DNA from: Clostridiales bacterium
GTDB lineage: Bacteria; Bacillota; Clostridia; Lachnospirales; Lachnospiraceae
NCBI GenBank assembly: GCA_012839295.1
Contig: DUNO01000064.1
Coordinates: 1-42,717, forward strand
DNA length: 42,717 nt
Reading direction: 5' to 3'
Shown here one piece after another: positions 2,013 through 20,064 of this stretch (positions within the stretch are counted from its first letter, which is position 1; each line of letters begins with the position of its first letter). Made by a program: the position numbers and the translations under genes. The notes beneath the pieces are model-generated. The model worked only from the letters and a program-made list of their open reading frames with translations. It did no database searches and was not told where the DNA came from.

Positions 2013-2966
2013 TTAACTATAATCTTGATTTCCTAACAAAGCCGCTCCAACAATACCCGCATCATTTTTTAGTTCTGCACAGGCAATCTGCGGACATGTC
2101 ATTTCTCCATATATATTTTGCCCAACCTTTTTACGGAGTGGACTGACTAAACGCTCTCCCTGATTACTAATTCCGCCACCCAGTATAATGATTTCCGGCA
2201 TGAATATATTAATTAAGTTAAGAATACCGTAGGAGAGATATTCAATATACTGTTCAAATACCTGGTTAGCAATCGCATCGTTTAAATCCATTGCCTGGAA
2301 TATCGTTTTTCCTTCCACTTCCTCAAGAGCTAACACCTTCTGCCACGCCAAGCTTTCCGGATGTAATTCCATGGCCTCCCTCATGCTTTGTATGAGACCG
2401 GTAGCTGAGGCATAAGCTTCAAGGCATCCCCTTCTCCCACAAGTACATGGGCGCCCATTCATTACGATACCCATATGGCCAAACTCACCGCCCATGTTAT
2501 TTCCGCCAGCAAATATTCTTCCATCTGTCACATATCCTCCACCTACGCCTGTACCCAGCGTAAGCATTAGCATGTGGTTTTTACCCCTACCGGCACCTGC
2601 CAACGCTTCTCCGTAAGCTGCCGCATTGGCATCATTCTCTAAATAGATCTTGCATCCTAACCTATCCTGCATCATCTTTTTAATAGGCAACCCGTCAAAC
2701 CCCAGATTATTCGTGAAGCTAATCTCCCCTGTTTTTGCATGAATGGTTCCGGGTATGCCAATACCTATGCGTACTATTTCCTCCATCGTACAACCAATCT
2801 TAAGGATTGCCTGCCTTACACAATAAGCCATATCATCACAAATTTCATTAGCAGGCCTTCCTGCCTTTGTTTGCATATTATATTTTGATATAATATGATA
2901 GCTTTCATCAACTACACCTACTGCAATATTTGTCCCACCTAAATCAATTCCAATATAATAATTCAT
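2013..2966 (-). CDS. ROK family sugar kinase (glucokinase-like)
   Basis: A 317-residue ROK protein, expected to phosphorylate a hexose or amino sugar with ATP in the cytoplasm. The N-terminal phosphate-binding motif DLGGTN is at residues 8-13, the catalytic aspartate is D112 in the END motif, LGTGVGGG follows at 137-144, and the ROK zinc site is formed by the EFGH segment (161-164) and C174, C176 and C181 in CTCGRRGC. Length is normal. The start codon is preceded by AAGGGG. It is the last gene of the minus-strand operon that begins with the PIG-L deacetylase at 9788, which suggests that it phosphorylates the sugar freed by that pathway. ROK repressors are unlikely because no N-terminal helix-turn-helix precedes the kinase domain. 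Confidence 0.9.
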   Translation of the reverse strand: MNYYIGIDLGGTNIAVGVVDESYHIISKYNMQTKAGRPANEICDDMAYCVRQAILKIGCTMEEIVRIGIGIPGTIHAKTGEISFTNNLGFDGLPIKKMMQDRLGCKIYLENDANAAAYGEALAGAGRGKNHMLMLTLGTGVGGGYVTDGRIFAGGNNMGGEFGHMGIVMNGRPCTCGRRGCLEAYASATGLIQSMREAMELHPESLAWQKVLALEEVEGKTIFQAMDLNDAIANQVFEQYIEYLSYGILNLINIFMPEIIILGGGISNQGERLVSPLRKKVGQNIYGEMTCPQIACAELKNDAGIVGAALLGNQDYS

Positions 2967-3159
2967 AATCTACCCCTTTCACGAAACTTCCTCTTCTTGG
3001 TCTCCGGAGCAAAAACCGGATGCAGCAAGATATTGCAGCCGGCACAAAAGGAGCCGCCGCAAAATGTAAAAATTCAACAAGATATAGTTTCTGGCTGTTG
3101 GCCAACACAAATATCTTATATGAAAAATTCATTTTGCGACAGCCCCTTCTTATAAATGA

Positions 3160-4335
3160 TTAATATACTCCCATCTCAAGAACCGTATCTATAAATATTT
3201 TAAAATTCTCTTCCGTTCTGGGAGAAAGCGGTACATTAAGCGGCGTTGCCGTTGGTAAAGCCACAAAATTCCCTCCGGGCTTTCCTTCCTCGACGCATTT
3301 ACGGACGACCTCTTTCATCTGGTCAGCAGGTAATAGCTCCAAATCCCTAAGCTGTATATTGCCAAACAGACAAATTTTATCCCGGCATATCTCTTTCGCT
3401 TCTTTCAATGTTATGTCACCAGATTCAGGAGCCTCAACAGGATCGATAGCATCGATCTCCATATCCAGGAAATCCCGGAGGACAGTTTTAACCTTTCCAT
3501 GGGAGTGAATACGGGCATACCTGCCATAATCATGAATTAAGCGAATTATTTTTTTATCATATGCCACAACAAATTTCTTAAAAAATTCATTTGGCAAATA
3601 GGGTGGTGTACAGTATTCCGCCCCAGCCATACGGAATAATGGTCCTGCGCCTTGTCTCAGCATATCCTTAAGAAAGTATTCCTGTTCTTCATATGCCTTG
3701 TCTAACATCTTGATTATGGTTTCCTCCTCGGTAAAAGCGGTCACCGTAAAATCTCCAAATTCAAACATTCCTGCCACTTCACAGATTGGGTCAGAGATAT
3801 CAACCATCAGGATGCCATTGTCCCCAATATAATCTTCCTGCTCCTTTAAATGGGACACATCCACGGGCATAGGCTCAAAGGGGACAGAAAGATACTTCTC
3901 TATATCACTCTCGTCCTTAATTCTGTGCTCGATTTCCCAGGCAGTATATATCCCCTTATCCATTCTGAAGGTTTGGGTTAAATCTCCTTTTGGTGTCGTC
4001 AAAATTATCTTTGTAAAAGTGCTGTCGCCTTCTTGCATTTGCTCATAGCGTGTATGCTTGGCCACATAGGCATTATTGCAATTAACACTGGTCATATAAA
4101 TGCAATCCGCTTTTTCCCTAATATATTTCATAAGAGGGATATAAGACTCTTCCCTATTCCACCAGCCTGACATATAGGTACCAAAGATATTGTCCTCAAC
4201 ATATCTGGTCATTTCGTCCTTCAAAACCGAATTCTTTGGTTCAACATGCCAACCGGTCATATCATATGTAGAAATCGGTACACGATCCGGTATTTTATGT
4301 TGTAAAACGGTTAATAACCTTTCTTTTGATGTCAT
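3160..4335 (-). CDS. URO-D family protein, divergent metal site
   Basis: A 391-residue member of the uroporphyrinogen decarboxylase / cobamide methyltransferase superfamily; the start SKERLLTVLQHKIPDRVP matches the conserved N-terminus. In MtaA/CmuA-type methyltransferases zinc is held by an HxC...C set. Here the equivalent place reads HSHG (H277, H279), and the C-terminal position reads PTATPLN with no cysteine, so the usual site is altered. The ATG at 4335 is chosen because GGAGG lies five bases upstream; an in-frame TTG at 4347 would include that ribosome binding site. It lies between the ABC binding-protein gene and the ROK kinase. Function is unknown: a decarboxylase-like or methyl-transfer role on the imported compound is inference, not shown. 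Confidence 0.8.
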   Translation of the reverse strand: MTSKERLLTVLQHKIPDRVPISTYDMTGWHVEPKNSVLKDEMTRYVEDNIFGTYMSGWWNREESYIPLMKYIREKADCIYMTSVNCNNAYVAKHTRYEQMQEGDSTFTKIILTTPKGDLTQTFRMDKGIYTAWEIEHRIKDESDIEKYLSVPFEPMPVDVSHLKEQEDYIGDNGILMVDISDPICEVAGMFEFGDFTVTAFTEEETIIKMLDKAYEEQEYFLKDMLRQGAGPLFRMAGAEYCTPPYLPNEFFKKFVVAYDKKIIRLIHDYGRYARIHSHGKVKTVLRDFLDMEIDAIDPVEAPESGDITLKEAKEICRDKICLFGNIQLRDLELLPADQMKEVVRKCVEEGKPGGNFVALPTATPLNVPLSPRTEENFKIFIDTVLEMGVY

Positions 4336-4471
4336 TATTTCCTCCAATTTTCCATAAAATCAACTTTCATTATTATCGTTCCAAAAAGGACGTCCCGTAT
4401 ATATTAATAAGATGTTATGGCAACCTTAACTGGTTTTATATTTACGTTTTGAAATCCAAATATAAATAATA

Positions 4472-5440
4472 CTAATCCATATAATCCTTTACATTAGAGC
4501 TGTCTGCAAGCCCAAAGCTTGTATTTGTTATGTCTTCTAATTCCTCTCCATTAACCGCTTTTACGGCTGCCGCTAATGAATCTCTTACAACATCTACCGG
4601 AGGTACAACAATTAAAGCTTTATAATATTTATGGTTCTCTGATAACGCTGTAAATGGCTCATCTCCATATCCGCCACAGGATAATACGGCACATTCCTCT
4701 GCCCCTGCTTCTTCTAATGCGGTTACCGCACCCCAGGCATGATTGTCAACTACGCCGTAAACCATATCAATACCTTTTGCAATATTATTATTAATAATAT
4801 TAGCAGATACCTCACGGCTTCCATTTGCATCCTGGGTCGCAATGATTTCAACCTTATCAATCGTATTAATAATACTTAAAAATCCTTCATCCCTCTTTAC
4901 TAAATGCGGATAACTTGGAGCATTAATCATGACCAGATTAACCTTCTCTTTATCTGCATAGTTCTCTTCAATATACTTTTTAGCATATTCTCCTAATTTT
5001 ACGCCAGTTTCATAGTTATCCCAGGCAACACAGGTTGAGACATAGGAATATTCAATCGGTGTATCGGTAGAAACAACAGGAATACCTGCTTCTTCCGCCT
5101 TTTGAATTGCTGGAATAATGCCCTGTGCATCAGCAGCGGAAGCTATAATAACATCATATTGCTGCGTGATAAAGTTCTCAATCTGCTGTGTCTGCTTTTC
5201 ATTATCCTGATTACCATCTTGGACATTAATTTCGTAACCAAGCTCTGCAGCCTGCCTCTCATATTCGTCCGAAATTGCTGCAAGCCATTCATCCCCCTTA
5301 TACAAAAGGGCTACACCTACTTTAAGTTTTTTGCCTTCCTTTTCAGTAACCTCTTCTTCCGTTTTTGCACCACACCCTATGAATGCCGTTGTAGTTATAA
5401 CACCTGCTAATAACACTGCTACAAATTTTTTTAATTTCAT
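4472..5440 (-). CDS. sugar ABC transporter substrate-binding lipoprotein
   Basis: A 322-residue type I periplasmic-binding-protein-fold lipoprotein (RbsB/Peripla_BP_4 type). The signal peptide ends in a lipobox with C23 in FIGCG; the mature part begins with an acidic linker and then KLKVGVALLYKGDEW. It would be anchored to the outer face of the membrane and deliver substrate to the permease and ATPase encoded just upstream. GAGGAG precedes the ATG. Ribose, galactose, xylose and autoinducer-2 binders share this fold, so the ligand cannot be named. The two flanking URO-D genes and the PIG-L gene suggest a modified sugar. Confidence 0.9.
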   Translation of the reverse strand: MKLKKFVAVLLAGVITTTAFIGCGAKTEEEVTEKEGKKLKVGVALLYKGDEWLAAISDEYERQAAELGYEINVQDGNQDNEKQTQQIENFITQQYDVIIASAADAQGIIPAIQKAEEAGIPVVSTDTPIEYSYVSTCVAWDNYETGVKLGEYAKKYIEENYADKEKVNLVMINAPSYPHLVKRDEGFLSIINTIDKVEIIATQDANGSREVSANIINNNIAKGIDMVYGVVDNHAWGAVTALEEAGAEECAVLSCGGYGDEPFTALSENHKYYKALIVVPPVDVVRDSLAAAVKAVNGEELEDITNTSFGLADSSNVKDYMD

Positions 5441-5470
5441 CTTCCTTCTCCTCTTTAATATATTTTTTTG

Positions 5471-6949
5471 CTAAGTGCATAGTTCCATGATTTTTTCCTG
5501 TGTTGCTTTCCTTGCTGCCATCTCCCCAACTAGCTTTCCTTCATGCATAACCATAATTCTATCACACATTCCCAGAAGCTCCGGCAGCTCCGAGGATATC
5601 ATGATAATTGATTTTCCCTGTTTAACAAGGGCACACATCAGCCGGTATATCTCTGACTTTGCACCTACATCAATTCCTCTCGTAGGTTCATCCATAATGA
5701 TAATTTCACTATCCTCTAATAACCATTTTGCAATTACCACTTTTTGTTGGTTACCACCGCTCAGATATTGTACCTCTGTCTCTATATTGGGCGTGGCAAT
5801 ATCTAGTTTGTCAACATAATGCTTACTCATATCCTTTTCCATGGAAGCTTGTATTAGTCCATGCCTGGTCACTTTATTTCTGCCAACCATACAGATATTT
5901 TCTTTCACAGGCGCGATTTGCACCAGCCCTTGCTGTCTTCTGTCTTCGGGTATTAATCCAAGACCATTTGCTATTGCATTCTGAAAGGATTTGATGAGAA
6001 TTTTCTTACCCTTTAGATAAACAGCTCCGCTATCCAGGTGATCTATACCAACTAAAGCACGCATTACTTCCGTCCTTCCGGCGCCTACAAGTCCGGAGAA
6101 GCCCAGAATTTCTCCCTTTCGAAGTTCAAAAGAGATATCCTTAAATACTTTTTTTCTTGTTAAATGCTCTGCTTTTAGTATTACATCACCAATATCAATT
6201 TCTTCTTTAGGATATTCATTACCTATGGATCTTCCTACCATTAATTTGATTAGTGTTTTACGGTCACATTCTTTTACCGGCAAAGTATCAATGTGTTTTC
6301 CATCTCTTAGTACTGTAATCGTATTTGCCAGATTAAAAATTTCCTCCATTCTGTGGGAAATATAAATAATTGTAATTCCGTCCTTGATCAATTTATCCAT
6401 GATGCCAAACAATATTTTTAGTTCTTTTTCCGTTAAGGTAGCAGACGGTTCATCCATAATCAGAACTTTACAATCATGATTGATTGCTTTGCAGATTTCT
6501 ACGATTTGCTTTTTAGCAACGGTCAACTGATTGACCGGCATATCTACCTCCAAATCCATCCCAAGACCCTCAACCATTGCCTGCGCCCTATGTTTCATTT
6601 CTTTCCAATCCACTAATCCTTTTTTATAAATAAGGTTACCCAAGAAAATATTTTCTGTTATGCTTAAGGTCTCTGCCAATTTGATTTCCTGATGTACAAC
6701 ACTTATTCCATGCTTTTGTGCATCATTGGGGGTACGTAACTTCAAAAGCTCACCATCCAGGTATATTTCGCCTTCATAGTTCGTATAAATACCTGCCAAT
6801 AGTTTAATTAATGTTGATTTGCCTGCCCCATTCTCTCCCATCAACGCATGGACATGCCCTTTTTTTATTTCAAATGACACATTATCTAAAGCCTTAACAC
6901 CAGGAAAACTTTTTCCAATTCCCTTGAATTGAAGTATTGTATTATTCAT
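5471..6949 (-). CDS. sugar ABC transporter ATPase, two-domain Mgl/Rbs type
   Basis: A 492-residue duplicated ABC ATPase of the MglA/RbsA/XylG type, energising import of a monosaccharide-sized substrate. The first domain has a full Walker A (GENGAGKST, residues 38-46), a variant signature (LTVAKKQ) and Walker B followed by DEPSATL. The second has the degenerate P-loop GLVGAGRTE usual for these proteins, a normal signature LSGGNQQ and Walker B with DEPTRGID. Length and order are normal. It lies 30 bases after the permease and 30 bases before the binding protein, clearly one operon. Confidence 0.93.
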   Translation of the reverse strand: MNNTILQFKGIGKSFPGVKALDNVSFEIKKGHVHALMGENGAGKSTLIKLLAGIYTNYEGEIYLDGELLKLRTPNDAQKHGISVVHQEIKLAETLSITENIFLGNLIYKKGLVDWKEMKHRAQAMVEGLGMDLEVDMPVNQLTVAKKQIVEICKAINHDCKVLIMDEPSATLTEKELKILFGIMDKLIKDGITIIYISHRMEEIFNLANTITVLRDGKHIDTLPVKECDRKTLIKLMVGRSIGNEYPKEEIDIGDVILKAEHLTRKKVFKDISFELRKGEILGFSGLVGAGRTEVMRALVGIDHLDSGAVYLKGKKILIKSFQNAIANGLGLIPEDRRQQGLVQIAPVKENICMVGRNKVTRHGLIQASMEKDMSKHYVDKLDIATPNIETEVQYLSGGNQQKVVIAKWLLEDSEIIIMDEPTRGIDVGAKSEIYRLMCALVKQGKSIIMISSELPELLGMCDRIMVMHEGKLVGEMAARKATQEKIMELCT

Positions 6950-6979
6950 GACATCCCCCTTTCCTTTAACTATATTTTC

Positions 6980-7990
6980 TTATTTACTTCTTTTATTTCT
7001 AAAAACATCCAACAGGACTGCAATAACTAATACAGCACCTTTTATAGCATCCTGGTAAAATGGATCAATATTCATCATCGTCATACCATTGAAGAAAATT
7101 ATTAAAAAGATTACGCCAAATAGGGCACCAATGACTTTACCCTTTCCTCCTGTCAGGCTTAATCCACCGATTACGCAAGCAATAACAGAATCAAATTCAT
7201 ACAGATTGCCATTTGTTAAGGATACCGAATCTAAACGTGACATTAGAATTATTCCGCCGAATGCAGCTAATAATCCCCCCAGGGCAAAGGTTAAGCAATA
7301 GGTCTTTTTTATATTAATACCAGCAAAATATGCAGCTTCTGCTCCTCCGCCTGTTGCATAAATATTTCTCCCAAATCTTGTTTTACGGGATACAAATTGT
7401 CCCACTATGTATAGGGCAATCATGATGATTACACAGATCGGAAATATTCCAATATAACCTCTGCCTAAAAATGCGATGTCATCCGGTAGTCTTGCGATTG
7501 GTGTGGCGTTGGTTATAATTTTAGCTGCACTTCTGCAGATCATCTGGAGACCTAAAGTGGCAATGAATGCCGGTATCTTGAAGTATGCAAAAAGTACACC
7601 ATTTGTTAATCCTACTAAGCATCCTAAAAGTAAAGCCACTAAAATAGATAACCAGGGGTTAATTCCCTCTATTTTCATCAAATATGCTGCTACAGCGCTG
7701 GTAAAGCAAACACATTGTCCCAGTGACATGTCAAATTGTCCATTTAGGATAATGAAAGCCTGACCCATAGCAACGATTGCTAATGCAGAACATTGTAAAA
7801 AAATATTTTTAATATTCTGTGCCGTAAAAAAGTATGGGGACATAAATGAAAAAACCAAACCCATAATTAAAATTGCAAATACAGCCGCATACTCTTTACT
7901 AAACCTGGATAACTGCTGTCCAACATATTTTATCGCAGTATTTCTATCATTTACCTTTATCGTATCCAAAATATTACCACCCCTTCTCAT
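6980..7990 (-). CDS. sugar ABC transporter permease, RbsC/MglC type
   Basis: A membrane permease of the BPD_transp_2 family with about eight to ten hydrophobic segments, the first at about residues 38-58 (YAAVFAILIMGLVFSF). The conserved loop ATGGGAEAAYFAGINIKK and the end motif KGAVLVIAVLLDVFR match RbsC-type permeases. It pairs with the double ATPase downstream. The ATG at 7990 lies only seven bases after the previous stop and has a weak ribosome binding site; a TTG at 7969 (codon 8) has AGGGGTGG seven bases upstream and may be the true start, giving 329 residues. Confidence 0.9.
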   Translation of the reverse strand: MRRGGNILDTIKVNDRNTAIKYVGQQLSRFSKEYAAVFAILIMGLVFSFMSPYFFTAQNIKNIFLQCSALAIVAMGQAFIILNGQFDMSLGQCVCFTSAVAAYLMKIEGINPWLSILVALLLGCLVGLTNGVLFAYFKIPAFIATLGLQMICRSAAKIITNATPIARLPDDIAFLGRGYIGIFPICVIIMIALYIVGQFVSRKTRFGRNIYATGGGAEAAYFAGINIKKTYCLTFALGGLLAAFGGIILMSRLDSVSLTNGNLYEFDSVIACVIGGLSLTGGKGKVIGALFGVIFLIIFFNGMTMMNIDPFYQDAIKGAVLVIAVLLDVFRNKRSK

Positions 7991-7997
7991 AAGCTAT

Positions 7998-8984
7998 TTA
8001 TTCCACAAATGCTTTCATGTTCTCTATCGGAGTGTCCCGTGCCACTTCACATCCTGCGCTTAGTATAAATTTCGCTTTATTTAGGGACTTCAGTTTAAGT
8101 ACTTCTTGTCTGATCAGCTCCGGAGTACCATCCTTTAAAATTCCTACAGGATCGATATTGCCTTTAATGCAAATGCTATCGCCTACTAAATCAAAGGCTT
8201 CCCTTGCATCAATCTTATAGTCAATATTAACTAAGTCGAATTGAAGTTCCTTCGCGTAGGGTAAAATATGCTTTGCATCCCCACAGATATGGTATTTTAA
8301 TTTAACATCTGATTTCTTACGGATTCCATCAACAACCTTTTTCGTGTATGGATATACAATCGTTTCATATAGATTAGGAGAAATCATCGATGCGGTAGCA
8401 TCTCCAATACCAATAATATCCGCTCCTGCCTTTGCTTGCTCTAAAGCAAAGGCAATACCAATTTCTGATGCAAACTCAAGAAGCTCTTCGACAAATTCAG
8501 GCTCTTCAAAAAGATCCACCATGAATTCGTTAATATCATATAGCATCGCTGCACTTTGTAAGGGTGACTCAATCCATCCAACAACTGCTTTCTCGTCTTT
8601 ATAATGATTTTTAAGGTATCTTATTCCTTCCACCTTATCGATCAGCCTAGGGGATTTGCTGATATCCGGCATCTTAAAAGCGAATTTCGTCTTATCTGTA
8701 ATCGCATGCTTAACTATAACCGGAAGGCCATCCTCCGGAAAATCTAATATTGCGCCACAGGCACTTGCCTCACGATATGCATCTGAATCTACAGTAACTG
8801 CATCCAATCCGAAAGCATCCGCTGTAATAATCTGAGCTTTTGCTAACGATTTATAGTCCGTAGCGAATTCCCTATATATAACCTTTGCATACTTAGCCGA
8901 AAATGCCATGACAAAAGGCCAAATAGGAGTTTTATCAACCTTCCTTCCTGCGATAGCATTATTAATTCTTTCTAATCCTTTCAT
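7998..8984 (-). CDS. URO-D family methyltransferase-like protein (MtaA type)
   Basis: A 328-residue URO-D superfamily protein with the HxC...C zinc set of MtaA/CmuA-type cobamide methyltransferases: H232 and C234 in YHICGD and C312 in LSAGCE. The segment GNIDPVGILKDGTPE is also typical. Such enzymes usually move a methyl group to or from a corrinoid protein, but no corrinoid-protein gene lies in this operon; the nearest is at 24574. GAGGAGG precedes the ATG. It follows the PIG-L deacetylase and leads directly into the transporter genes, so it probably acts on the imported compound or on a methyl group released from it. The substrate is unknown. Confidence 0.85.
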   Translation of the reverse strand: MKGLERINNAIAGRKVDKTPIWPFVMAFSAKYAKVIYREFATDYKSLAKAQIITADAFGLDAVTVDSDAYREASACGAILDFPEDGLPVIVKHAITDKTKFAFKMPDISKSPRLIDKVEGIRYLKNHYKDEKAVVGWIESPLQSAAMLYDINEFMVDLFEEPEFVEELLEFASEIGIAFALEQAKAGADIIGIGDATASMISPNLYETIVYPYTKKVVDGIRKKSDVKLKYHICGDAKHILPYAKELQFDLVNIDYKIDAREAFDLVGDSICIKGNIDPVGILKDGTPELIRQEVLKLKSLNKAKFILSAGCEVARDTPIENMKAFVE

Positions 8985-9020
8985 TTCCTTCCTCCTCTTA
9001 AATGCTGTGTATGGTGAAAG

Positions 9021-9090
9021 CTAGTGTACTGTCCCATTTATCAAAATAGGCAGTGCTGTTAGCCTAATTATGAGCGGGACAGTACACTAG
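9021..9090. repeat. 70-bp element with perfect 15-bp terminal inverted repeats
   Basis: The arm at 9021-9035 (CTAGTGTACTGTCCC) is exactly complementary to 9076-9090, with 40 bases between that hold a further short stem (TAGGC/GCCTA). The right arm includes the stop codon of the PIG-L gene (9087-9089). The size and exact ends resemble a small MITE remnant; it could equally act as an mRNA hairpin between PIG-L and URO-D. No clear target-site duplication was seen. Confidence 0.8.
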
Positions 9091-9788
9091 GGTAAGAACC
9101 GTCCCGGTATAGCCCTAAGTGCAGTGGTTAATCTCTGAAATCCTTCCGCATATTTTACTCCGCATTGAAATCCCCGATAAGCTGCACTAACTTTAACAAA
9201 ATCCAAGATGTCCATGCCATCATGCTCTTTTAACCACTCTATTTGACTTTTATGGCATGACAGCATTTCAAGCTTTAAATCAAAGGTATCCGTAATGTCT
9301 ACAAATTCCTGGGGAACAAAGGATATTCCTGTGTAAGGCTCCATAAAATAAATCTGTGGTGTATGCTCCATCGCTTTTTGGTCCGGATAACAATGAGGAA
9401 CCGATACCAGAAAACTAGCATCAACCACTAATTTGCTAACCGCCACATGATCCAAATGGTAATCGTCCGGCACGTGTGTGATAATAACATCCGGATTTAT
9501 TTCCCTGATTTTTTTTACAAACAGCTCTAAGTTGGTATGATTAATCTCTAATTCCGCATCACTAAAATTCAGCGAAGATACCTTAGCCCCTATTACCTTA
9601 CTAGCCATTTGGCTTTCCCTTAATCTCATCTTTCCTATTTCCTTAGGTTCGATATAATAATGCCCTTTATCTCCCAGACAGGCATTTACAATATAAGCTT
9701 CATCTCCTCTTTGGATACTTTTTGCAAGTGTTCCGGCACAATTAATTTCTACATCGTCTGGATGGGCACAAAATGCTAATATTCTCAT
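9087..9788 (-). CDS. PIG-L / LmbE family deacetylase
   Basis: A 233-residue zinc-dependent N-deacetylase of the PIG-L/LmbE family, which removes acetyl from N-acetylglucosamine-type groups. The metal motif AHPDD is at residues 8-12, and a second HxxDH-type site occurs in PDDYHLDH. There is no signal peptide, so it should act in the cytoplasm. It is the first gene of the minus-strand operon running down to the ROK kinase and is divergent from the AraC regulator at 10120. GAGGAG precedes the ATG. Its last codons run into a 70-bp palindromic element that supplies the stop, so the C-terminus may have been altered. A role in deacetylating the imported sugar is inferred from context. Confidence 0.88.
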   Translation of the reverse strand: MRILAFCAHPDDVEINCAGTLAKSIQRGDEAYIVNACLGDKGHYYIEPKEIGKMRLRESQMASKVIGAKVSSLNFSDAELEINHTNLELFVKKIREINPDVIITHVPDDYHLDHVAVSKLVVDASFLVSVPHCYPDQKAMEHTPQIYFMEPYTGISFVPQEFVDITDTFDLKLEMLSCHKSQIEWLKEHDGMDILDFVKVSAAYRGFQCGVKYAEGFQRLTTALRAIPGRFLP

Positions 9789-10119: not shown

Positions 10120-11070
10120 ATGGACACGAAATTGTTTTACAAGCAAGAACTTCATAAGATACTTGAAATTGATAATGTCATTAGTTTATTTTATAGTGAT
10201 TTGAACCAGAAATTCGATTCTAAGGGGGAAAGCCATGACTTCTGGGAATTAGTGTACATAGATCGCGGAAAAATAGAAATTGATACGGAAGAAAAAAACT
10301 TTACTCTTGAAAAAAACTGTATTTACTTTCATAAGCCAAATGAATACCATCGCCATAAAACAATTTCAGGTAATATACCTTCTATGTGTGTTGTTTCCTT
10401 TAAATGTGACAGTCCCCTTCTGGGCGCTCTTGCTGATAAAATAATTGTTTTACCGGAATATTGCCAGAACATTCTTTCCCAGGTATTAAAATATGGTTCC
10501 ATCATATTTACATCCATCGTGGACACCAAAGAACGCCTTTACCTGGTAAAGAATGAAAAATATCCATTCTTCCTGGAGCAAATGCTAATCAATTATTTAG
10601 AAATCTTTTTGTTAGAACTAGTAAATATTAATACCATGACCTATTCAGATATATCTGACGACAAAAAAAGCGTTGAACAAAGTCATGCTAATCCAAGTAA
10701 TGAATTAGTATTATCCGCAAAGGTATATCTCTTAAACAATCTTTTTACCAATATAAGAATCCCGGATATCTGTGAGGCTTTAAATTGCTCTAAAACTCTC
10801 CTGCATGTTACCTTTAAAAGACAAACCGGCCTTACCATCATTCAATATTTAACTAGTTTACGGATTGAAAAGGCAAAAGAATTAATTCGGACATCAAATT
10901 TGAATATCACACAAATCGCAGATCAGTTAAGATTTTGCAATATTAATTATTTTTCAAACTCATTTAAAAAATATACCGGAATGTATCCAAGTGAATATAC
11001 AAAAAGTATAAAATCAAAAGATTGCATACGGTATCTATATTCTGAAAGAGGTTCACAAATTGAGGAATAA
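10120..11070 (+). CDS. AraC family transcriptional regulator, cupin sensor
   Basis: A 316-residue one-component regulator. The N-terminal cupin-like sensor (about residues 15-110) contains FWELVYIDRGK and a histidine-rich PNEYHRHK segment typical of sugar-binding AraC proteins. The C-terminal double helix-turn-helix spans about 205-305, ending in YFSNSFKKYTGMYPSEY. AGGAGG lies about ten bases before the ATG. It is divergent from the PIG-L operon and is the obvious candidate to control it. The sensed sugar is unknown. Confidence 0.88.
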   Translation: MDTKLFYKQELHKILEIDNVISLFYSDLNQKFDSKGESHDFWELVYIDRGKIEIDTEEKNFTLEKNCIYFHKPNEYHRHKTISGNIPSMCVVSFKCDSPLLGALADKIIVLPEYCQNILSQVLKYGSIIFTSIVDTKERLYLVKNEKYPFFLEQMLINYLEIFLLELVNINTMTYSDISDDKKSVEQSHANPSNELVLSAKVYLLNNLFTNIRIPDICEALNCSKTLLHVTFKRQTGLTIIQYLTSLRIEKAKELIRTSNLNITQIADQLRFCNINYFSNSFKKYTGMYPSEYTKSIKSKDCIRYLYSERGSQIEE

Positions 11071-11201: not shown

Positions 11202-12872
11202 TTAAGAATAAGAATATAATACCCTGGCTTCATATGGTAATAGCTGATTGCTCTTTCTTTCAACCCCGGAATAATTATCAATGAGTACAGTGGCACTCTC
11301 CCATTCCTTTTCCGGCCCATAATCTACAATATCTTCTGTGAAATTGCATAATATTAATAATTTCTCATTGCCTAAAGTTCTTGAGTAAATAAAAAGCTTT
11401 TCATGATCTTTTTCTAGCAATTGATAGTTTCCATAGACTATGATGTCATATTGTTTTCGCAAGGATATTAATTTTTTATAATAAGAATACACAGAATCCG
11501 GATCATTTACCTGTGCCTCAGCATTAATATCTATATAGTTTGGGTTAATCTTGATCCAGGGAATGCCTGCCGTGAATCCAGCATTTGAATTATCATTCCA
11601 TTGCATCGGAGTTCTGGCATTATCCCGGCTCTTACAGTGGATATATCTCATCATTTCTTCCTTTGTTACAAGCCCATTACTGACATATTCTTCGTAGGTA
11701 TTTAAGGTATCAATATCTTTATAATCTTCTAATTTTTCAAACCTTACATTTGTCATACCAAGCTCTTCCCCTTGATAAATGTAAGGGGTTCCCTTCATCA
11801 TATGCAAACAGGTAGCAAGCATTTTCGCCGAGAGGTTTCTATATTTTGTACTATCATTTCCAAATCTTGAAACCGCCCTGGGTTGGTCATGATTATCCCA
11901 GTATAAGCTATTCCAAGCCTTACCCTTCAGCTCAGTCTGCCATTTTGACATGACGTTCTTCAGTTCAATTAAGTCAACTTTTTTATCCGTCCATTTACCA
12001 AGCTTACCTTCACTTAGCCAAACATGCTCGAACTGAAATATCATATTTAGTTCATCGCCTTTACAGCTGGCATATTTCTTAGCCTCCCCCGTAGTAACGC
12101 CAATTGTTTCTCCTACGGTCATTAAGTCATAACGGGATAAAACCTTATGATTCATTTCCTTTAGGTAATCATGTACCTTCGGTCCATTCATTATGTAGGG
12201 AGAAAAGTCTCCATATAATCCTTTTACCTCACCATCCGGGAAGCTCTGGTCTTTCGATATCATGCTGATGACATCCATACGAAAACCGTCAATACCTTTC
12301 TGGCACCACCAGTCCATCATCTGATAGATGTCTTCCCGCACCTTTACATTTTCCCAGTTTAAATCAGGCTGCTTTTTTGAATAGGAATGCAAATAGTACA
12401 TATCCGTTTCTTCATCGTATTCCCAGGCTGAGCCCCGAAATCTTGATCCCCAATTGTTGGGTTCTTTCCCGTCCTTACCTTCTCTCCATATATAGTAATC
12501 CCGATACGGATTATCTTTTGATTTCCTGCTTTCAATAAACCATTTGTGCCGGTCAGAGGTATGGTTGACTACCAAATCCATGACAATTTTAATCCCTCTT
12601 TTATGTGCTCCATCTAATAGGGCATCGAAATCTTCCATTGTACCAAATTCACCCATAATGGAATAATAATCGCTGATATCGTAGCCATTATCGTCATTTG
12701 GCGATTGATAAACCGGGGAGAGCCAAATAACATCGACACCAAGGTCTTTTAAATAATCTAATTTGCTAATAATCCCTTTTAGGTCACCAATCCCGTCCCC
12801 ATTACTATCCATGAAGCTTCTTGGATAAATCTGATATACAACCGCTTCCTTCCACCAATTTCTTGCTTCCAT
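11202..12872 (-). CDS. malL: GH13_31 alpha-glucosidase / oligo-1,6-glucosidase
   Basis: A 556-residue cytoplasmic GH13 enzyme that hydrolyses alpha-1,6 or alpha-1,4 linkages at the non-reducing end of short oligosaccharides. The conserved regions are present: DLVVNH (99-104), nucleophile D200 in GFRMDV, acid/base E255 in VGETIG, and NHDQ (327-330). The region V motif QPDLNW (168-173) is typical of subfamily 31. The ATG at 12872 is chosen because GAGGAG lies seven bases upstream; ATGs at 12878 and 12887 are too close to or before it. It is the last gene of the long minus-strand sugar operon. Confidence 0.93.
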   Translation of the reverse strand: MEARNWWKEAVVYQIYPRSFMDSNGDGIGDLKGIISKLDYLKDLGVDVIWLSPVYQSPNDDNGYDISDYYSIMGEFGTMEDFDALLDGAHKRGIKIVMDLVVNHTSDRHKWFIESRKSKDNPYRDYYIWREGKDGKEPNNWGSRFRGSAWEYDEETDMYYLHSYSKKQPDLNWENVKVREDIYQMMDWWCQKGIDGFRMDVISMISKDQSFPDGEVKGLYGDFSPYIMNGPKVHDYLKEMNHKVLSRYDLMTVGETIGVTTGEAKKYASCKGDELNMIFQFEHVWLSEGKLGKWTDKKVDLIELKNVMSKWQTELKGKAWNSLYWDNHDQPRAVSRFGNDSTKYRNLSAKMLATCLHMMKGTPYIYQGEELGMTNVRFEKLEDYKDIDTLNTYEEYVSNGLVTKEEMMRYIHCKSRDNARTPMQWNDNSNAGFTAGIPWIKINPNYIDINAEAQVNDPDSVYSYYKKLISLRKQYDIIVYGNYQLLEKDHEKLFIYSRTLGNEKLLILCNFTEDIVDYGPEKEWESATVLIDNYSGVERKSNQLLPYEARVLYSYS

Positions 12873-12908
12873 TTTCATTCTCCTCATAACATGTTCATTT
12901 AGGTAATG

Positions 12909-13640
12909 CTATATATTGTAGTTTTTTAGTATTTGTGATACCTCAACCTTATCTAAACTCGATTTCGCTTCCTTAATATAGTCCTCACCAGACTCTGCAT
13001 CAAACAAATGCGTTAATAGTAATTTTTTTACCTTTGCCTTTTTTGCTAAAACGCCCGCCTCAAAGGCAGTCATATGTATACCTGGTAAATGCTTCATATT
13101 ACTTAATAATGTAGATTCACACAGGAATAAATCGGCACTGTCCGCTGCATGCATTAGAGAATCGCAGAAGCTGCTATCCGATGAATAGGTAAATATTTTA
13201 TTTTCGTAAGTGACTCTTACTGCATATGAATCGATGGAATGATTTACTTTAAAAAAGTGTAATCCTATGTTATTCATTATTTCAGTTAAGCCATCCTGTA
13301 TGTAGTAAATTGAGAAAACATCATTTGATGAAATTTCCGAATAAATCCATTGTGGTACCTTTGGTATATATAATTTTACTTTTCCGATATTGTCGCCAAA
13401 AGCTTTTTTAGTCTCAACAGCATATTTGAAAGGAAACAGGTCCGCAAAATGATCAAAATGAAGATGTGAAATTATAATTACATTGATTTCAGACAGATCA
13501 CAAATATTTTGCAGCTTAGCCAAGCTTCCATTTCCCATATCGATAAGAATCTTTATGGCATCTGCTTCCAGAAGAAAAGAAGAGCATGCGCCATTTTTTA
13601 TTGGATAGGTTCCGTTATTGCCTAAAACTGTTAATTTCAT
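12909..13640 (-). CDS. metallo-beta-lactamase fold hydrolase
   Basis: A 243-residue MBL-fold protein of the RNase Z / phosphodiesterase-like branch. The metal motif SHLHFDH is at residues 58-64, with later ligand candidates in VNHSID, YSSDSSF and LLTHLFD. There is no signal peptide. The ATG at 13640 has AAGGTGGAAAGG just upstream; the reading frame extends a further 30 codons upstream but that part has no family resemblance. It sits between the DUF6259 protein and the alpha-glucosidase, so it may hydrolyse a lactone or phosphoester intermediate of the same pathway. The exact reaction is unknown. Confidence 0.82.
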   Translation of the reverse strand: MKLTVLGNNGTYPIKNGACSSFLLEADAIKILIDMGNGSLAKLQNICDLSEINVIIISHLHFDHFADLFPFKYAVETKKAFGDNIGKVKLYIPKVPQWIYSEISSNDVFSIYYIQDGLTEIMNNIGLHFFKVNHSIDSYAVRVTYENKIFTYSSDSSFCDSLMHAADSADLFLCESTLLSNMKHLPGIHMTAFEAGVLAKKAKVKKLLLTHLFDAESGEDYIKEAKSSLDKVEVSQILKNYNI

Positions 13641-13757
13641 CCTTTCCACCTTCTTGCAGCAATATTTAAATAAATACCCCAAATCGAAGTATAGCGACGA
13701 AGTTATCCTGTTAATAACAATCGCCGCCAAGCCTTCATTTTATAACGATGCTTTATG

Positions 13758-15785
13758 CTATTTAGAAAAACCTATAATAAAACACCATAAACGTTCATTA
13801 CCGATAGGATACACCACATTACCAGTTTCATTTCTCTCTACTGTTTGTTCCCAATTTGTATTAAACACTTGAAGCTCTAATGATGTTTCATCCAAATTTA
13901 ATTTAACTACCGCAGTATCAACTTTTTCCTTATTACCGCATAATATCATAACCCGGCCGTCGGCAAGCCTCCATGACGTAGCATCACATCCGTCAGTAAT
14001 CTCCGAAATATATTTATTATCTAAGAATGTGGCGCCATTGATATATGGTTGGATTTTTTCCCTAAAATTTAATGCCTTTTTACTAAACTCTACAAACTCT
14101 GTCTCTTCCTTTAAATGCGTGGTAATTCCCATCCATAAGACACTTCCGAGTAATATTGCCCTTTGCATATCTTTATAGAACCAGTTCCTCTTTTCTTCCA
14201 TATCCTGGACCCAGCCTCTGGGGTTTACCATATTTACTTGGACAAACTCAGGAAATGTATACTTGAATACATTAAAGAATTCATCATAGTGTTCGCCATT
14301 CCAGGTAAGATTTCCCCAAACATAGCTTCCGTAAATATCTCCGCAATTTTCAGTCATAAGATAAGCATCCGGGTTATATTCCTTTAATCTATGAAATAGT
14401 TCCTTCAATACATAAACATAACCGTTATTAAAATCCCCAATGTTATCATGGCTATGCTCTGAATTATAGCAAGGAAATGGTTCTGCAGATGCAAGCTGAT
14501 CTAAGTAAATCCCATCCGCGCCATATGCCTTAACTGCAAATTCTGCTGTGTCAATCAAATAATCTCTCCACAATGAATCTGATGGACAGTTCACCGTAAA
14601 ATGCTCCGGCCCATAGGTTTCTCCAATCATGCTTCCATCATATTGCCTGATAGCCATTTTTTCGCCCAAAGTCTTATGAAAATCAGACTTTTTATCAAAA
14701 ATTCTGGCATTAATATATAATGTTGAGAAACCATCATGCTTCTTAACATATTCCAATCCCCGTCTGAATTCCATAGCAGAGCCTAATTCCATATCCGGAT
14801 AGTATTCCGGGTAAAAGGAATCGAATCCGGTTCTATTCCAGCTGGCAATAAACATATGACGGATGCCCCATGCTTTACCTGCTTCATACATATCAGGGAT
14901 ATCCCTAAAATAATTTTCAATTGTACCACGACGTTTAAAATTATAGCATTGATTTAAGGAGCATTCGTTCTTTAAAAATTCAGGTGTATGATCAAAATCC
15001 AGATATGGTTCAATATAGCTTCTATAGATCTGTGCCCCATAGTGCCAATCCTTTTCTGTTATGGCAATTACATAATCACCTGTTTTATAGGTTTGTCCAT
15101 AGCTTATCCGGTGATGCTTTCTAAAGTTTAATCCCATATACGGTTTATCATTTCCAGCCTCTGCAATAACCCCTGTTACTGGAAACCTCTCGTCATGGGA
15201 ACCAATATAGAGTCCATTTTTATCATCATAGTAATACATCCAGCTCATTGATGCCAGACCACAATAATTAATTTCCCTGGCGTACACATTCCCTGCTAAT
15301 TTCGTCCCACTCCTGCCATAATTCTGCATTTTTTCTCCGGCGAATTCTTGGACTGGATTTAAGATTTTTTCGCCTGCATGATGAGGGTAGATAAGATAGC
15401 TGTCCCTTGTTTCATCACCAAACAATACTCCGCTAATATGGGGACATAGAACTTCCACAATATCAACACCGGTTTCATTATTCTGTATATCTGCAGAAAT
15501 AACCATTTTTTCTTCTTGCCCGGTTATCGTCAATTCCGCAAAGATTGAAAAACCTGAGAAACGGTTATACTGGACCACAATCGTATTCTCTTCACTCTTA
15601 ATCATTGCCTCTTCAGGAATGAGTGTGATCTTCTCAGCTTCCTTGTTTAATCCAGTCAAACTCAACAATGGCACCTGAGGAGCCGACTTAATATAATCCA
15701 TACCCGTTACTGAATTTTTAATACTAGAGAAATTATTAATCTCTTTATCAAATTCTGCAATATAACTTTTCCCTTTGATTCTCAT
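13758..15785 (-). CDS. DUF6259-type glycoside-hydrolase-like protein
   Basis: A 675-residue cytoplasmic protein that I read as a DUF6259 member: an N-terminal beta-sandwich (about 1-250), a TIM-barrel (about 270-600) and a small beta-rich end. Barrel features include IASWNRTG (313-320), GIYLDQ with D429, and LMTENCGD with E479; D429 and E479 are reasonable catalytic candidates by analogy with GH36-like barrels, but this is inference. There is no signal peptide. A GAGGT site precedes the ATG. It lies in the operon with the sugar kinase, SIS proteins and GH13 enzyme, consistent with intracellular cleavage of the imported saccharide. No activity can be stated. Confidence 0.7.
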   Translation of the reverse strand: MRIKGKSYIAEFDKEINNFSSIKNSVTGMDYIKSAPQVPLLSLTGLNKEAEKITLIPEEAMIKSEENTIVVQYNRFSGFSIFAELTITGQEEKMVISADIQNNETGVDIVEVLCPHISGVLFGDETRDSYLIYPHHAGEKILNPVQEFAGEKMQNYGRSGTKLAGNVYAREINYCGLASMSWMYYYDDKNGLYIGSHDERFPVTGVIAEAGNDKPYMGLNFRKHHRISYGQTYKTGDYVIAITEKDWHYGAQIYRSYIEPYLDFDHTPEFLKNECSLNQCYNFKRRGTIENYFRDIPDMYEAGKAWGIRHMFIASWNRTGFDSFYPEYYPDMELGSAMEFRRGLEYVKKHDGFSTLYINARIFDKKSDFHKTLGEKMAIRQYDGSMIGETYGPEHFTVNCPSDSLWRDYLIDTAEFAVKAYGADGIYLDQLASAEPFPCYNSEHSHDNIGDFNNGYVYVLKELFHRLKEYNPDAYLMTENCGDIYGSYVWGNLTWNGEHYDEFFNVFKYTFPEFVQVNMVNPRGWVQDMEEKRNWFYKDMQRAILLGSVLWMGITTHLKEETEFVEFSKKALNFREKIQPYINGATFLDNKYISEITDGCDATSWRLADGRVMILCGNKEKVDTAVVKLNLDETSLELQVFNTNWEQTVERNETGNVVYPIGNERLWCFIIGFSK

Positions 15786-15802
15786 GGCCGATTACCTCAT
15801 TT

Positions 15803-16543
15803 CTAATATCCGGATTTTGTATAGTTTTCTATAGCTGCATTGTTGATTTGGGTTGCATTAGGCATATGATTAGAAATATATACACTGGGCTTTAACCCCT
15901 TATTGATTAGTTTCTCCACCACTGTGCTTTGTAAAGCCCACATAATATAGCTTGCGCTGATTCCACTGGCAGGGCACATATTCTGACCGATTTCTTCTAC
16001 TTCAACCAAGGTGTCACCGTAATTTGTACAATTATCTAAGTAGTATTGGCAAGCTTCATATAATCTTTTCCCGGAAGGGTGCTGGGAGGTTAATCTGCTG
16101 GAATATTCAACGGAAGATATAGCGATGGTAAGGCAATCCATTGTATTTGCTTTTAGCGCTAAATCAACCGGAAAATATTTATATCCGGATACAGAGCCAA
16201 TCATAATAATATCTCCCGATAACACATTGGATCTTCCAAGGACATAGTCAGCAAAGCCTTCTACACTGTCATATCCTATAGCACCCTTCTGTGGTGTAGG
16301 ACGGTGCCGGACAGGGTTATCGATTTCACAGGTTATTTTAATTGGTTTTAACGCCATCATTCCACCGGTTCTGCCTACGCCTTCAAACATCAGCATATGT
16401 CCGGTATCCAGAATATTCCAGGCAGCACCTTTTGACAATCTCTCTGCTATTTCCTCTGACACCTTAATTATGGTTTCTCTTTGCGTCACTTCAATTTTTT
16501 CCAGTACCTTTTTCATTTCTGTAAAATAGCTGTCCATTAACAT
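15803..16543 (-). CDS. SIS domain sugar-phosphate isomerase-like protein (copy 2)
   Basis: A 246-residue single SIS-domain protein. The N-terminus has a helical segment then NILDTGHMLMFEGVGRTGG; a phosphate-binding loop candidate is MIGSVSGYKY (about 118-127). The C-terminal segment YISNHMPNATQINNAAIENY resembles FISANVPNGMEHNLELIEQY in the SIS protein at 17507-18280, so the two are diverged paralogues. GGAG lies eight bases before the ATG, which is four bases after the kinase stop. SIS proteins act on phosphosugars (isomerase, deaminase, etherase); the placement directly after the kinase suggests use of its product. Which reaction is unknown. Confidence 0.8.
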   Translation of the reverse strand: MLMDSYFTEMKKVLEKIEVTQRETIIKVSEEIAERLSKGAAWNILDTGHMLMFEGVGRTGGMMALKPIKITCEIDNPVRHRPTPQKGAIGYDSVEGFADYVLGRSNVLSGDIIMIGSVSGYKYFPVDLALKANTMDCLTIAISSVEYSSRLTSQHPSGKRLYEACQYYLDNCTNYGDTLVEVEEIGQNMCPASGISASYIMWALQSTVVEKLINKGLKPSVYISNHMPNATQINNAAIENYTKSGY

Positions 16544-16547
16544 AATG

Positions 16548-17492
16548 TTATCTCCTTAACAAAGCTTTTATTATATCCGGATCTGAAATATCACAATTTT
16601 CTATATTATCAAGAGCATATAAAGCAGCACCGATAATTGGAGGGTATTTTCTTGGTACAAATTGGCACTCCGGTAATGCTTGTTTTAAATGTCCCCTAAA
16701 TTTCTCTAATATTATATCTCCCATATTGGCAATACCACCAGTGAAAGAAACCTTGGCTCCTTCAACCTTTAAACGGTCAGCTACGACAACTGCTAAATCC
16801 ACCAGTTCTTTTGCTGCTTTATCAAGGATTTTATTGGCTGTAGAATCACCCTGCTTTGCCGCATCGGCTACAATATAGGATAAACCGGCAACTTTATCCC
16901 GTGTAAAATGTGGCTGGTAAGCATATGTTCTAAGGTCTTCAACAGATAGGAGGTTGAATTTATGTAAAACATCCTTTTCTAATACTGAACCACTCTTCCC
17001 TTGATCGTATTGCTTCGCAATTTCATATAAACACATTGTTCCAATATGATATCCACTTCCATAATCGCCGAATAATGGACCCCATCCACCACATTGGAAG
17101 GTTGTGCCAATCGAATCTTTAGCAATAGCAAAGGATCCTGTACCGCTCAAAACTACAATTCCATTTCCTCCGCCAAGGGCTCCATAAAAAGCATTCTCTG
17201 TATCACCATGAAGGGATATATCCATGTAATCCAATTTCTGTTGTATGATAGGAAGGCAACGGGCAAATCCAGGTATAAACAGCTCAACCTTTGCTATTTG
17301 TTGTATATTCAACTCTGCCTTTGCAAGACAATAGGTTATACCGTCTATTATTGTCCTGACAGCCTCATCTGTACTAATAAAATTTGCATTTGCACTTGTT
17401 CTTCTTACTTCAGCCAGTACTTTTCCGGCTGCATTAAACAATAGAAAATCTGCTTTTGTACCGCCCGCATCACATACTAAATAATTATTCAT
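16548..17492 (-). CDS. BadF/N-acetylglucosamine kinase family sugar kinase
   Basis: A 314-residue ASKHA-fold kinase of the BadF/BadG/BcrA/BcrD family, the same family as eukaryotic GlcNAc kinase. PHOSPHATE1 is DAGGTK (8-13), PHOSPHATE2 is LSGTGSFA, and a glycine-rich GWGPLFGDYGSG follows; the adenosine motif is SFTGGIA. The family is used for GlcNAc, MurNAc and glucosamine. It is tightly packed between two SIS-domain genes, an order that recalls amino-sugar recycling clusters (kinase plus SIS etherase or isomerase). Substrate is inferred to be an amino sugar or a related hexose. Confidence 0.88.
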   Translation of the reverse strand: MNNYLVCDAGGTKADFLLFNAAGKVLAEVRRTSANANFISTDEAVRTIIDGITYCLAKAELNIQQIAKVELFIPGFARCLPIIQQKLDYMDISLHGDTENAFYGALGGGNGIVVLSGTGSFAIAKDSIGTTFQCGGWGPLFGDYGSGYHIGTMCLYEIAKQYDQGKSGSVLEKDVLHKFNLLSVEDLRTYAYQPHFTRDKVAGLSYIVADAAKQGDSTANKILDKAAKELVDLAVVVADRLKVEGAKVSFTGGIANMGDIILEKFRGHLKQALPECQFVPRKYPPIIGAALYALDNIENCDISDPDIIKALLRR

Positions 17493-17506
17493 GACACCCT
17501 GCTCTC

Positions 17507-18280: not shown

Positions 18281-18288
18281 ATCAAACT
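18241..18288 (-). repeat. 24-bp tandem duplication at the SIS start codon
   Basis: The segment 18241-18264 is repeated at 18265-18288 with the last two bases differing. In the minus-strand frame it encodes FDMKKIND twice, so the start region ATG is duplicated. Only the outer ATG (18280) keeps the GGAG site; the inner one lacks it. Confidence 0.9.
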
Positions 18289-18301
18289 CCATATCTTAAT
18301 T

Positions 18302-18340
18302 TATATAGTTGTTGCAGATTTCATTTGCAACAACTATATA
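18302..18340. repeat. 15-bp perfect hairpin just upstream of the SIS gene
   Basis: Arms 18302-18316 and 18326-18340 pair exactly around nine bases. On the minus strand it ends about 21 bases before the SIS start codon. On the plus strand it is followed by TTTT. It may be an operator, an attenuation structure or an mRNA processing signal. Confidence 0.75.
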
Positions 18341-18384
18341 TTTTATTTTGCTTCAAGCGTCAAAAGTCTTTCTATACCTATCGC

Positions 18385-18505
18385 GGTGAATGCGAGCGCA
18401 TATATCTGCATTTGGAGCAGACCGGGCCTCGTATGATTGCCTGTACTTGGTAATCATACGATGTTAAAGGCAAGCCAAATGCAGATATATGCGCTCGCAT
18501 TCACC
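18385..18505. repeat. 121-bp element with perfect 31-bp inverted repeats
   Basis: The arm 18385-18415 is exactly complementary to 18475-18505. The 59-base centre contains a second, nested hairpin (about 18430-18460, 11 of 12 pairs). Shorter complementary pieces (AGCGTCA/TGACGCT) lie further out. The whole 18293-18610 gap is made of this element, the 15-bp hairpin and no supported gene. It may be a MITE-like insertion or an intra-operon mRNA structure between the binding-protein and enzyme genes. Confidence 0.85.
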
Positions 18506-18610
18506 TCACAGCCTAAATCTTACCCATCTGACGCTCAAATCATTTTCTTGATCCAAGGACACAGTTCTATTGGTTACGCCTCATATTCCTTTGAACTTGA
18601 TGACTACGGA

Positions 18611-19954: not shown

Positions 19955-20010
19955 CACTATTTCCTCCCTTTTTGATTTTTGATTCCTTTCATGCATAAGG
20001 AATCTATATA

Positions 20011-20047: not shown

Positions 20048-20064
20048 GTCACTACTTTCATTGA

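Follow-up and report, generated by a model that had tools for sequence, protein, structure and literature searches.

Two URO-D-fold proteins in a sugar-import operon of a Lachnospiraceae bacterium: a probable pathway for a modified amino sugar

Introduction

Why would an operon for sugar import encode two proteins of the URO-D fold and no corrinoid protein? The question is raised by a run of seven genes on the minus strand (positions 9788 to 2013) in a stretch of 42,717 nucleotides from a Clostridiales bacterium of the family Lachnospiraceae (assembly GCA_012839295.1, contig DUNO01000064.1, positions 1 to 42,717), hereafter called the window. The genes encode, in this order, a PIG-L-type deacetylase, a first URO-D protein (UROD1), the permease, ATPase and binding protein of an importer, a second URO-D protein (UROD2) and a ROK-family kinase. 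Anaerobes encode URO-D-fold proteins in very large numbers, many of them without an assigned function. To our knowledge, the members studied so far have aromatic methoxy groups, halomethanes or methanogenic methyl donors as their substrates. Here we report that the operon is real and recurring, and that its probable role is the uptake and degradation of a modified N-acetylglucosamine-type sugar or glycoside. As for the chemistry of the two URO-D proteins, it may be either demethylation with a shared corrinoid protein or a corrinoid-independent reaction.

Results

Composition of the operon

Domains were called with the Pfam curated cut-offs, and every named domain of the seven gene products scored above its cut-off. 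The gene list, order, place and domain names of a preliminary description of this DNA, including the divergent AraC gene, are thus all confirmed. The first gene (9087-9788) codes for the PIG-L-type N-deacetylase, of 233 residues (PF02585, 92.9 bits). It is followed by UROD1, an MtaA-like protein of 328 residues (7998-8984; PF01208, 235.6 bits), an Rbs/Mgl-type sugar ABC permease of 336 residues (6980-7990; PF02653, BPD_transp_2, 126.4 bits), a double-domain sugar ABC ATPase of 492 residues (5471-6949; PF00005, ABC_tran, 174 bits over two stretches) and a sugar-type substrate-binding protein of 322 residues (4472-5440; PF13407, Peripla_BP_4, 140.3 bits). UROD2 comes next (3160-4347; PF01208, 43.4 bits); this divergent URO-D protein probably starts at an internal ATG at 4335, where its homologues begin. 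The ROK-family sugar kinase, of 317 residues, is encoded last (2013-2966; PF00480, 236.8 bits). In the core, neighbouring genes are separated by 7, 30 and 30 bp, elsewhere by 102, 124 and 193 bp; strand and spacing together suggest that the seven genes form an operon.

Among the importer subunits, the permease scores below all NCBIfam equivalog cut-offs listed, the ATPase is AraG/XylG/RbsA-like and reaches none of the equivalog cut-offs, and neither does the binding protein. The nearest solved chain to the kinase is glucokinase 3vgk (185.6 bits), and its score against TIGR00744, 248.6, is slightly under the cut-off of 260.35.

The enzyme set recurs with another type of importer

As judged from their sequences, PIG-L, UROD1 and a UROD2-clade protein recur together in two genomes beside that of the window. 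The corresponding loci, L180 and L181, come from two distant genomes of two other families of the same phylum. In each, a single co-directional run comprises genes for a ROK-family regulator, a sugar-binding protein, two CUT1 permeases, a UROD2-clade protein with an HAHG motif, PIG-L, a PfkB kinase, UROD1, a MalK-type ATPase and NagB. Identities to the window proteins in L180 and L181 are 49 and 52% for PIG-L, 46 and 50% for UROD1, and 38 and 42% for UROD2. The CUT1 typing was checked on reference permeases and one L180 permease, and the binding proteins were checked in both loci. Since these loci have CUT1 importers and the window an Rbs-type one, the enzyme set is kept across two types of transporter.

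The NagB proteins of L180 and L181 pass TIGR00502 (glucosamine-6-phosphate deaminase) with scores of 309.3 and 298.4 against a cut-off of 236.9. The L180 regulator has NagC as its best match and the L180 binding protein weakly matches NgcE, both under the curated cut-offs. The grouping of PIG-L, two URO-D proteins, PfkB and NagB therefore indicates that a modified N-acetylglucosamine is catabolised. The preliminary description had proposed a route for a modified N-acetylated sugar, and this proposal gains support from NagB, PfkB, the ROK regulator and the binding protein of these loci, as well as from the proximity of the window PIG-L to diacetylchitobiose deacetylase (see below). No nagB gene was found in the window or in 11 other stretches of the same genome that were compared, the rest of that genome not having been searched.

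Partial versions of the set also occur. Locus L155 combines UROD1 (45% identity) with an Rbs-type importer and two ROK-like proteins, PIG-L and UROD2 being missing from the 20 kb fetched, and L046 has an Rbs-type importer, another URO-D protein and UROD1. More generally, a sugar permease or binding protein is encoded within 4 kb of the UROD1 homologue in 11 of 23 loci outside the window, a count lowered by the presence of some UROD1 loci on short contigs (e.g. L159). The same was found in none of 18 control loci centred on the corrinoid activase RACE (Fisher p 0.0004, a value that overstates independence because several loci share a genome, e.g. L185, L186, L188 and L189 from G908). The controls were hand-picked from genomes carrying UROD1 or UROD2 (carrier genomes); L210, whose RACE gene was missed by the open reading frame caller and found by tblastn, and L211, fetched for its corrinoid gene and devoid of RACE, were left out. 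All searches for relatives began from a URO-D protein, so that the sample consists of URO-D-bearing loci, with transporter-only relatives outside it.

In the UROD1 tree, the window groups with L155, L180 and L181 (support 0.752), and support is 0.942 with L185-L187 added. The UROD2 tree puts the window with L075, L076 and L077 (0.875, 0.913) and L180/L181 elsewhere. As the two trees place the window differently, strict co-inheritance of all three enzymes was set aside.

These data also bear on the idea that the URO-D proteins are passengers, that is, mobile paralogues that often insert beside accessory sugar operons but work in a methyl or one-carbon pathway unrelated to them. There are 15 URO-D matches in the genome, UROD1 and UROD2 are patchy, the neighbourhoods of the UROD2 clade are highly diverse, and the window UROD2 does not group with its counterparts in L180/L181, all of which would suit such a scenario. 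Nevertheless, we regard it as very unlikely, given that the three enzymes co-occur with two unrelated transporter types and that importers are common near UROD1 homologues and absent from the controls.

UROD1 and PIG-L

The nearest solved chain to UROD1 is MtaA of M. mazei (4ay7), with 80 of 316 aligned residues identical (25.3%). H232-x-C234 and C312 of UROD1 align with zinc-ligand positions of MtaA and are invariant in nine of nine homologues; we take His-x-Cys and the downstream Cys to be the zinc ligands of MtaA. UROD2 lacks this zinc-thiolate site: it has His-x-His (H281-x-H283-G) where UROD1 has His-x-Cys, and the later cysteine is missing, with E305 present. MtaA-like proteins (Mlps) are defined by more than 25% identity to a characterised soluble coenzyme M methyltransferase (PMC10418091), a threshold that UROD1 narrowly exceeds with M. 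mazei MtaA; UROD2 is outside the definition. Both miss the cut-off of the MtaA/CmuA subfamily TIGR01463 (235.4 bits), with 175.0 bits for UROD1 and 39.7 for UROD2. HemE function was rejected, as UROD1 scores 108.7 bits against the TIGR01464 cut-off of 302.95 bits and UROD2 is not listed at E <= 0.001.

For the window PIG-L, the top NCBIfam match is TIGR04001, the bacillithiol deacetylase BshB1, at 126.2 bits and below the cut-off of 182.5. Among solved chains, it comes closest to diacetylchitobiose deacetylase 8bgn (77 bits), and the BshB1 structure scores 63.5 bits. BshB1 is also the top NCBIfam match of the L181 PIG-L (107.1). These matches raise the possibility of a sulfur-bearing substrate, such as a thiosugar, a bacillithiol- or mycothiol-like thiol conjugate or an S-methyl sugar, from which PIG-L would cut an amide while UROD1 would move an alkyl group to or from a thiol. 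The thiol-activating zinc motif of UROD1 is consistent with this idea. So is the link, made in the part of PMC10418091 available to us, between the MtaA-like proteins of type 1 mlp clusters and methyl-sulfur metabolism. However, among solved structures the window PIG-L scores higher with diacetylchitobiose deacetylase than with BshB1, and no sulfur-metabolism gene was recognised among the scanned genes of L180 and L181. We therefore consider a sulfur-bearing substrate rather unlikely.

A conserved polar site in the UROD2 clade

An alignment-led scan placed the UROD2 clade in 124 confirmed loci, 80 of which were kept for analysis, from taxa including Clostridia, Planctomycetes, Armatimonadota, Lentisphaerae, Hydrogenedentes and Bathyarchaeota. 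A single-sequence search with UROD2 returned no relevant solved relative. The clade profile matches MtaA, CdmB and a HemE among solved chains, weakly in the case of CdmB (E 1.8e-8). The AlphaFold model of UROD2 (mean pLDDT 91.9) has MtaA and HemE as its best solved folds, at a TM-score of about 0.6, and it matches MetE, D-tagatose/D-psicose 3-epimerases and class II aldolases less strongly.

H281, H283, E305, R239, R279 and E244 are invariant in all 41 aligned sequences of the clade, which comprise that of the window and 40 hand-chosen from the 80 loci. In a more divergent set of 15, H281, H283, E305 and E244 are still invariant, and R239 and R279 vary. Among the raw sequences of the 80 loci, HxHG is found in 79 and a Glu at fixed spacing in 68, indels not being allowed for. 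The spacing of His281, His283 and Glu305 is that of the His-x-Cys...Glu part of the MetE site.

It is conceivable that both URO-D proteins act on the amino sugar without a corrinoid. UROD2 would then bind a metal through His281, His283 and Glu305 and use it to isomerise or decarboxylate a sugar or sugar acid or to cleave an ether bond in it, and the zinc of UROD1 would activate a thiol or the substrate directly, as in MetE. The invariance of the UROD2 site, in which His-x-His...Glu is kept and there is no cysteine, is in keeping with this scheme, as are the weaker fold matches. Conversely, the correspondence of E305 with MetE is one of spacing only, the epimerase matches have a TM-score of about 0.34 and may reflect generic TIM-barrel likeness, and the Glu is less widespread than the HxHG motif in the uncorrected counts. 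Moreover, UROD1 bears the zinc site of MtaA, which requires methyl-corrinoid.

The neighbourhoods of the UROD2 clade are very diverse, with no single conserved partner over the 80 loci. For 102 co-directional neighbours, GFO/IDH/MocA oxidoreductases, aldo-keto reductases and ABC-2 transporters (five each) and xylose-isomerase-like barrels (three) are among the commonest families. The oxidoreductases, reductases and barrels would suit a corrinoid-independent reaction, though the ABC-2 transporters are equally common. All in all, we hold corrinoid-independent action of both URO-D proteins to be doubtful yet well worth considering. The more specific proposal, that UROD2 represents a widespread URO-D-fold clade with a conserved His-x-His...Glu metal site and a new corrinoid-independent reaction, paired here with an MtaA-like partner stripping a substituent from imported N-acetylglucosamine, appears somewhat unlikely.

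UROD1 and UROD2 are both patchy across genomes. UROD2 was found in at least 1 of 34 genomes of the genus (E 1e-20), at least 2 of 200 of the family (1e-30) and at least 18 of 391 of the class (1e-25), and UROD1 in at least 2 of 200 of the family (1e-40) and at least 9 of 391 of the class (1e-50); a UROD1 profile at 1e-80 found it in at least 11 of 398 genomes of the phylum. These counts include the genome of the window, and all are lower bounds because most searches scored only the first few candidates per genome. On plasmids, UROD1 had one match (30.5% identity) and UROD2 none.

Is a corrinoid protein supplied in trans?

The assembly of the window is 98% complete and holds 15 URO-D matches, of which two lie in short frames of about 210 residues. 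It also has three B12-binding_2 proteins, namely two free-standing corrinoid proteins and one MetH-like frame, and a single RACE. These corrinoid and RACE matches lie at 24574 in the window and on contigs C12 and C77, none of them in the operon. The statement of the preliminary description that there is no corrinoid protein is thus true of the operon and not of the genome, because a corrinoid gene (24574-25221, minus strand; PF02607, PF02310), the nearest one found, is located about 15 kb from the PIG-L gene. Its product is free-standing and a candidate partner in trans. Likewise, the view that clostridial URO-D proteins are mainly partners of corrinoid proteins needs qualification here, with 15 URO-D proteins for two free-standing corrinoid proteins and one activase, and with 6 of the 15 by a sugar importer. 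The latter are the two of the operon and 4 of the 11 outside the window (within 4 kb); the other two URO-D proteins of the window were assigned no importer from the window scans.

The window corrinoid protein is 61% identical to that of a cluster on C12 (L065, 4408-10065), and its gene adjoins a PocR-AraC gene. The C12 cluster encodes cobW, MtaB, the corrinoid protein and, divergently, the only RACE match of the genome, with no recognised pterin-binding methyltransferase (MT-II). It looks like a methanol system because RACE adjoins cobW, MtaB and the corrinoid protein. As for the surroundings of the window corrinoid gene (21893-27926), the corrinoid protein, a sugar-diacid-type regulator and a glycerate kinase are encoded on one strand, and the PocR-AraC protein and a third URO-D protein divergently, which possibly represents a separate methyl system linked to glycerate.

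We tentatively favour the reading that the URO-D proteins of the operon take off an O-methyl-type group with the help of a corrinoid protein encoded in trans, and deem it a real possibility. RACE is present in 65 of 69 carrier genomes, and a free-standing corrinoid (B12) protein of 180-300 residues in 41 of 43, two counts that argue against corrinoid-independent action. The 69 carriers are 25 chosen by genome handle and 44 hand-chosen from the 80 named loci, with G302 and G1004 being the same genome. Among control genomes, only 1 of 14 has RACE, none of them selected to match these taxa. A B12-binding_2 open frame of at least 700 residues was not found in 29 of 43 carrier genomes, which favours corrinoid use, although a split methionine synthase would look alike.

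RACE was unmatched in G463, G398, G999 and G1038. G463 has a corrinoid protein 61% identical to that of the window; its gene lies with a PocR-AraC gene, a cobW-like gene and a URO-D gene (L211, 3951-8400). In 20 regions from 18 carrier genomes, RACE was found in 19, a corrinoid protein 47-64% identical to that of the window in 13, a full-length match to the window PocR-AraC protein in 7 and a relative of the pterin-binding methyltransferases in 7, the family being confirmed by Pfam in L198 and L201. Within 4 kb of RACE, 12 of 18 loci have a corrinoid-domain gene and 2 of 18 a URO-D gene. G914 and G661, which have the full module, also carry pterin-binding methyltransferase genes in RACE/corrinoid clusters. 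These clusters look like a separately encoded hub.

Several observations weigh against corrinoid use in trans. A corrinoid or RACE gene is present in none of the 23 UROD1 loci, and the 80 UROD2-clade loci hold one corrinoid gene (L132, about 9 kb away) and no RACE gene; the scarcity of corrinoid genes near the UROD2 clade equally speaks for a corrinoid-independent reaction. The presence of RACE was set aside as proof of corrinoid use, for want of a base rate in these taxa and because methionine synthase, too, has its B12 reactivated by DUF4445/RACE proteins, according to the part of PMC5764234 available to us. Furthermore, G463, with no RACE match, holds one of the closest UROD2 homologues. 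Of the parts of a corrinoid O-demethylase, the genome of the window has the corrinoid protein and the activase, and no free-standing pterin-binding methyltransferase was found in it, PF00809 occurring only in a DHPS-like window gene and in the MetH-like frame. The strictly kept polar residues of UROD2 (R239, E244, R279, H281, H283, E305) are unlike the cavity of CdmB, described as mainly aromatic and metal-free in the accessible part of PMC13222342. Added to these are the position of the window in the UROD2 tree and the nature of the substituent, presumed to be O-methyl from family chemistry.

In six regions of carrier genomes (L192, L194, L195, L196, L197 and L203), the combination of PocR-AraC, corrinoid protein and RACE is found again, and neither a URO-D nor an MtaB was recognised there. 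In L201 (11208-13028), a single protein fuses corrinoid-binding domains, a PocR sensory domain and a histidine kinase, inside a cluster of RACE, corrinoid, MT-II and URO-D genes; it may serve as a sensor of methyl-corrinoid. A corrinoid-like open reading frame is found in a similar position in L205, which is from the same genus.

Boundaries and neighbours of the operon

The operon is limited on one side by a divergent gene for an AraC-type regulator (10120-11070, plus strand; PF12833, PF00165, PF02311) and on the other by a terminator-like hairpin and a convergent GH30 gene. The hairpin (1883-1914) has 12 pairs and a T tail and lies between the stop codons of the ROK and GH30 genes. The region has 11 terminator-like sites, a modest excess over the 5.2 (sd 2.5) expected by shuffling, and no excess of promoter-like sites (36 against 32.3).

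A second sugar operon (11202-21838) encodes two SIS sugar isomerases above cut-off, a weakly NagK-like BadF-type kinase, a CUT1 importer and an enzyme that we take to be GH13-like from its sequence; it is likely to be another amino-sugar pathway next door. A fourth URO-D gene (38981-39973) adjoins a LysR regulator gene, with no sugar importer recognised beside it. GH127 genes adjoin UROD1 homologues in two genomes (L156, 8483-10435; L157, 7440-9314), and a GH127-like gene lies less than 4 kb from another URO-D gene of the genome of the window (L059, near 5971-7026).

Discussion

If the URO-D proteins are served by a corrinoid protein in trans, a pathway can be outlined. The Rbs-type transporter would import the sugar and PIG-L would take off its N-acetyl group. 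The two URO-D proteins would then strip a second substituent, most likely O-methyl, as methyl transfer is the best-known chemistry of the family. UROD2 might be the substrate-specific methyltransferase, and UROD1 a zinc-dependent methyltransferase passing the methyl group on, possibly to a thiol. The corrinoid protein and the activase, encoded elsewhere, would be shared among the many URO-D operons of the genome, like a hub with its spokes. Finally, the ROK kinase, or PfkB in L180/L181, would phosphorylate the freed amino sugar, and NagB would feed it into glycolysis. Both the order of events and the roles given here to UROD1 and UROD2 are inferred.

With modified amino sugars, the recurring set of PIG-L, two URO-D proteins and NagB suggests a definite class of substrates, and the function of two clades thereby becomes open to testing. 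Should the corrinoid protein be shared in trans, the demethylation of sugars would follow a hub-and-spoke design overlooked by neighbourhood-based annotation. Otherwise, the UROD2 clade would constitute a new class of enzymes. Among the matches listed in a search of the openly licensed literature, judged by title and the start of the abstract, no paper on URO-D proteins in sugar operons was found.

How does the operon compare with known systems? It resembles the type 1 mlp clusters in that UROD1 keeps the HxC...C zinc motif of MtaA at 25.3% identity and that several URO-D proteins form a set. In contrast to them, it has no corrinoid or Ram/RACE gene, it is tied to sugar import and deacetylation and not to sulfur genes, and its UROD2 is outside the family. 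Mlps are linked to methyl-sulfur or methyl-selenium metabolism in the part of PMC10418091 available to us, from which these features of the clusters are taken and in which the words 'sugar' and 'carbohydrate' were not found. As the operon lacks a corrinoid or Ram gene, its assignment as a type 1 mlp cluster was rejected.

URO-D-fold O-demethylases are known (PMC13222342, here and below for the part available to us). With MtvB, OdmB, VdmB and CdmBCA, the operon shares the superfamily and the many paralogues per genome, and CdmB also has no zinc site. Unlike CdmBCA and its kin, it has no corrinoid or MT-II gene alongside, and the UROD2 clade has a polar invariant site and a weak CdmB match. Some clades of the UroD superfamily are labelled in that work as acting on unknown substrates, and the word 'sugar' does not occur in that part.

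As for BshB1, it is the top NCBIfam match of the window PIG-L, which is under the cut-off, and the nearby genes that were scanned included no further one recognised as a bacillithiol gene. In the chitobiose deacetylase route, N-acetylglucosamine is catabolised with deacetylation ahead of phosphorylation. The operon differs from this route by its two URO-D proteins and, in the window, by the lack of nagB; it resembles it in combining a PIG-L deacetylase with a sugar kinase, to which NagB is added in L180 and L181.

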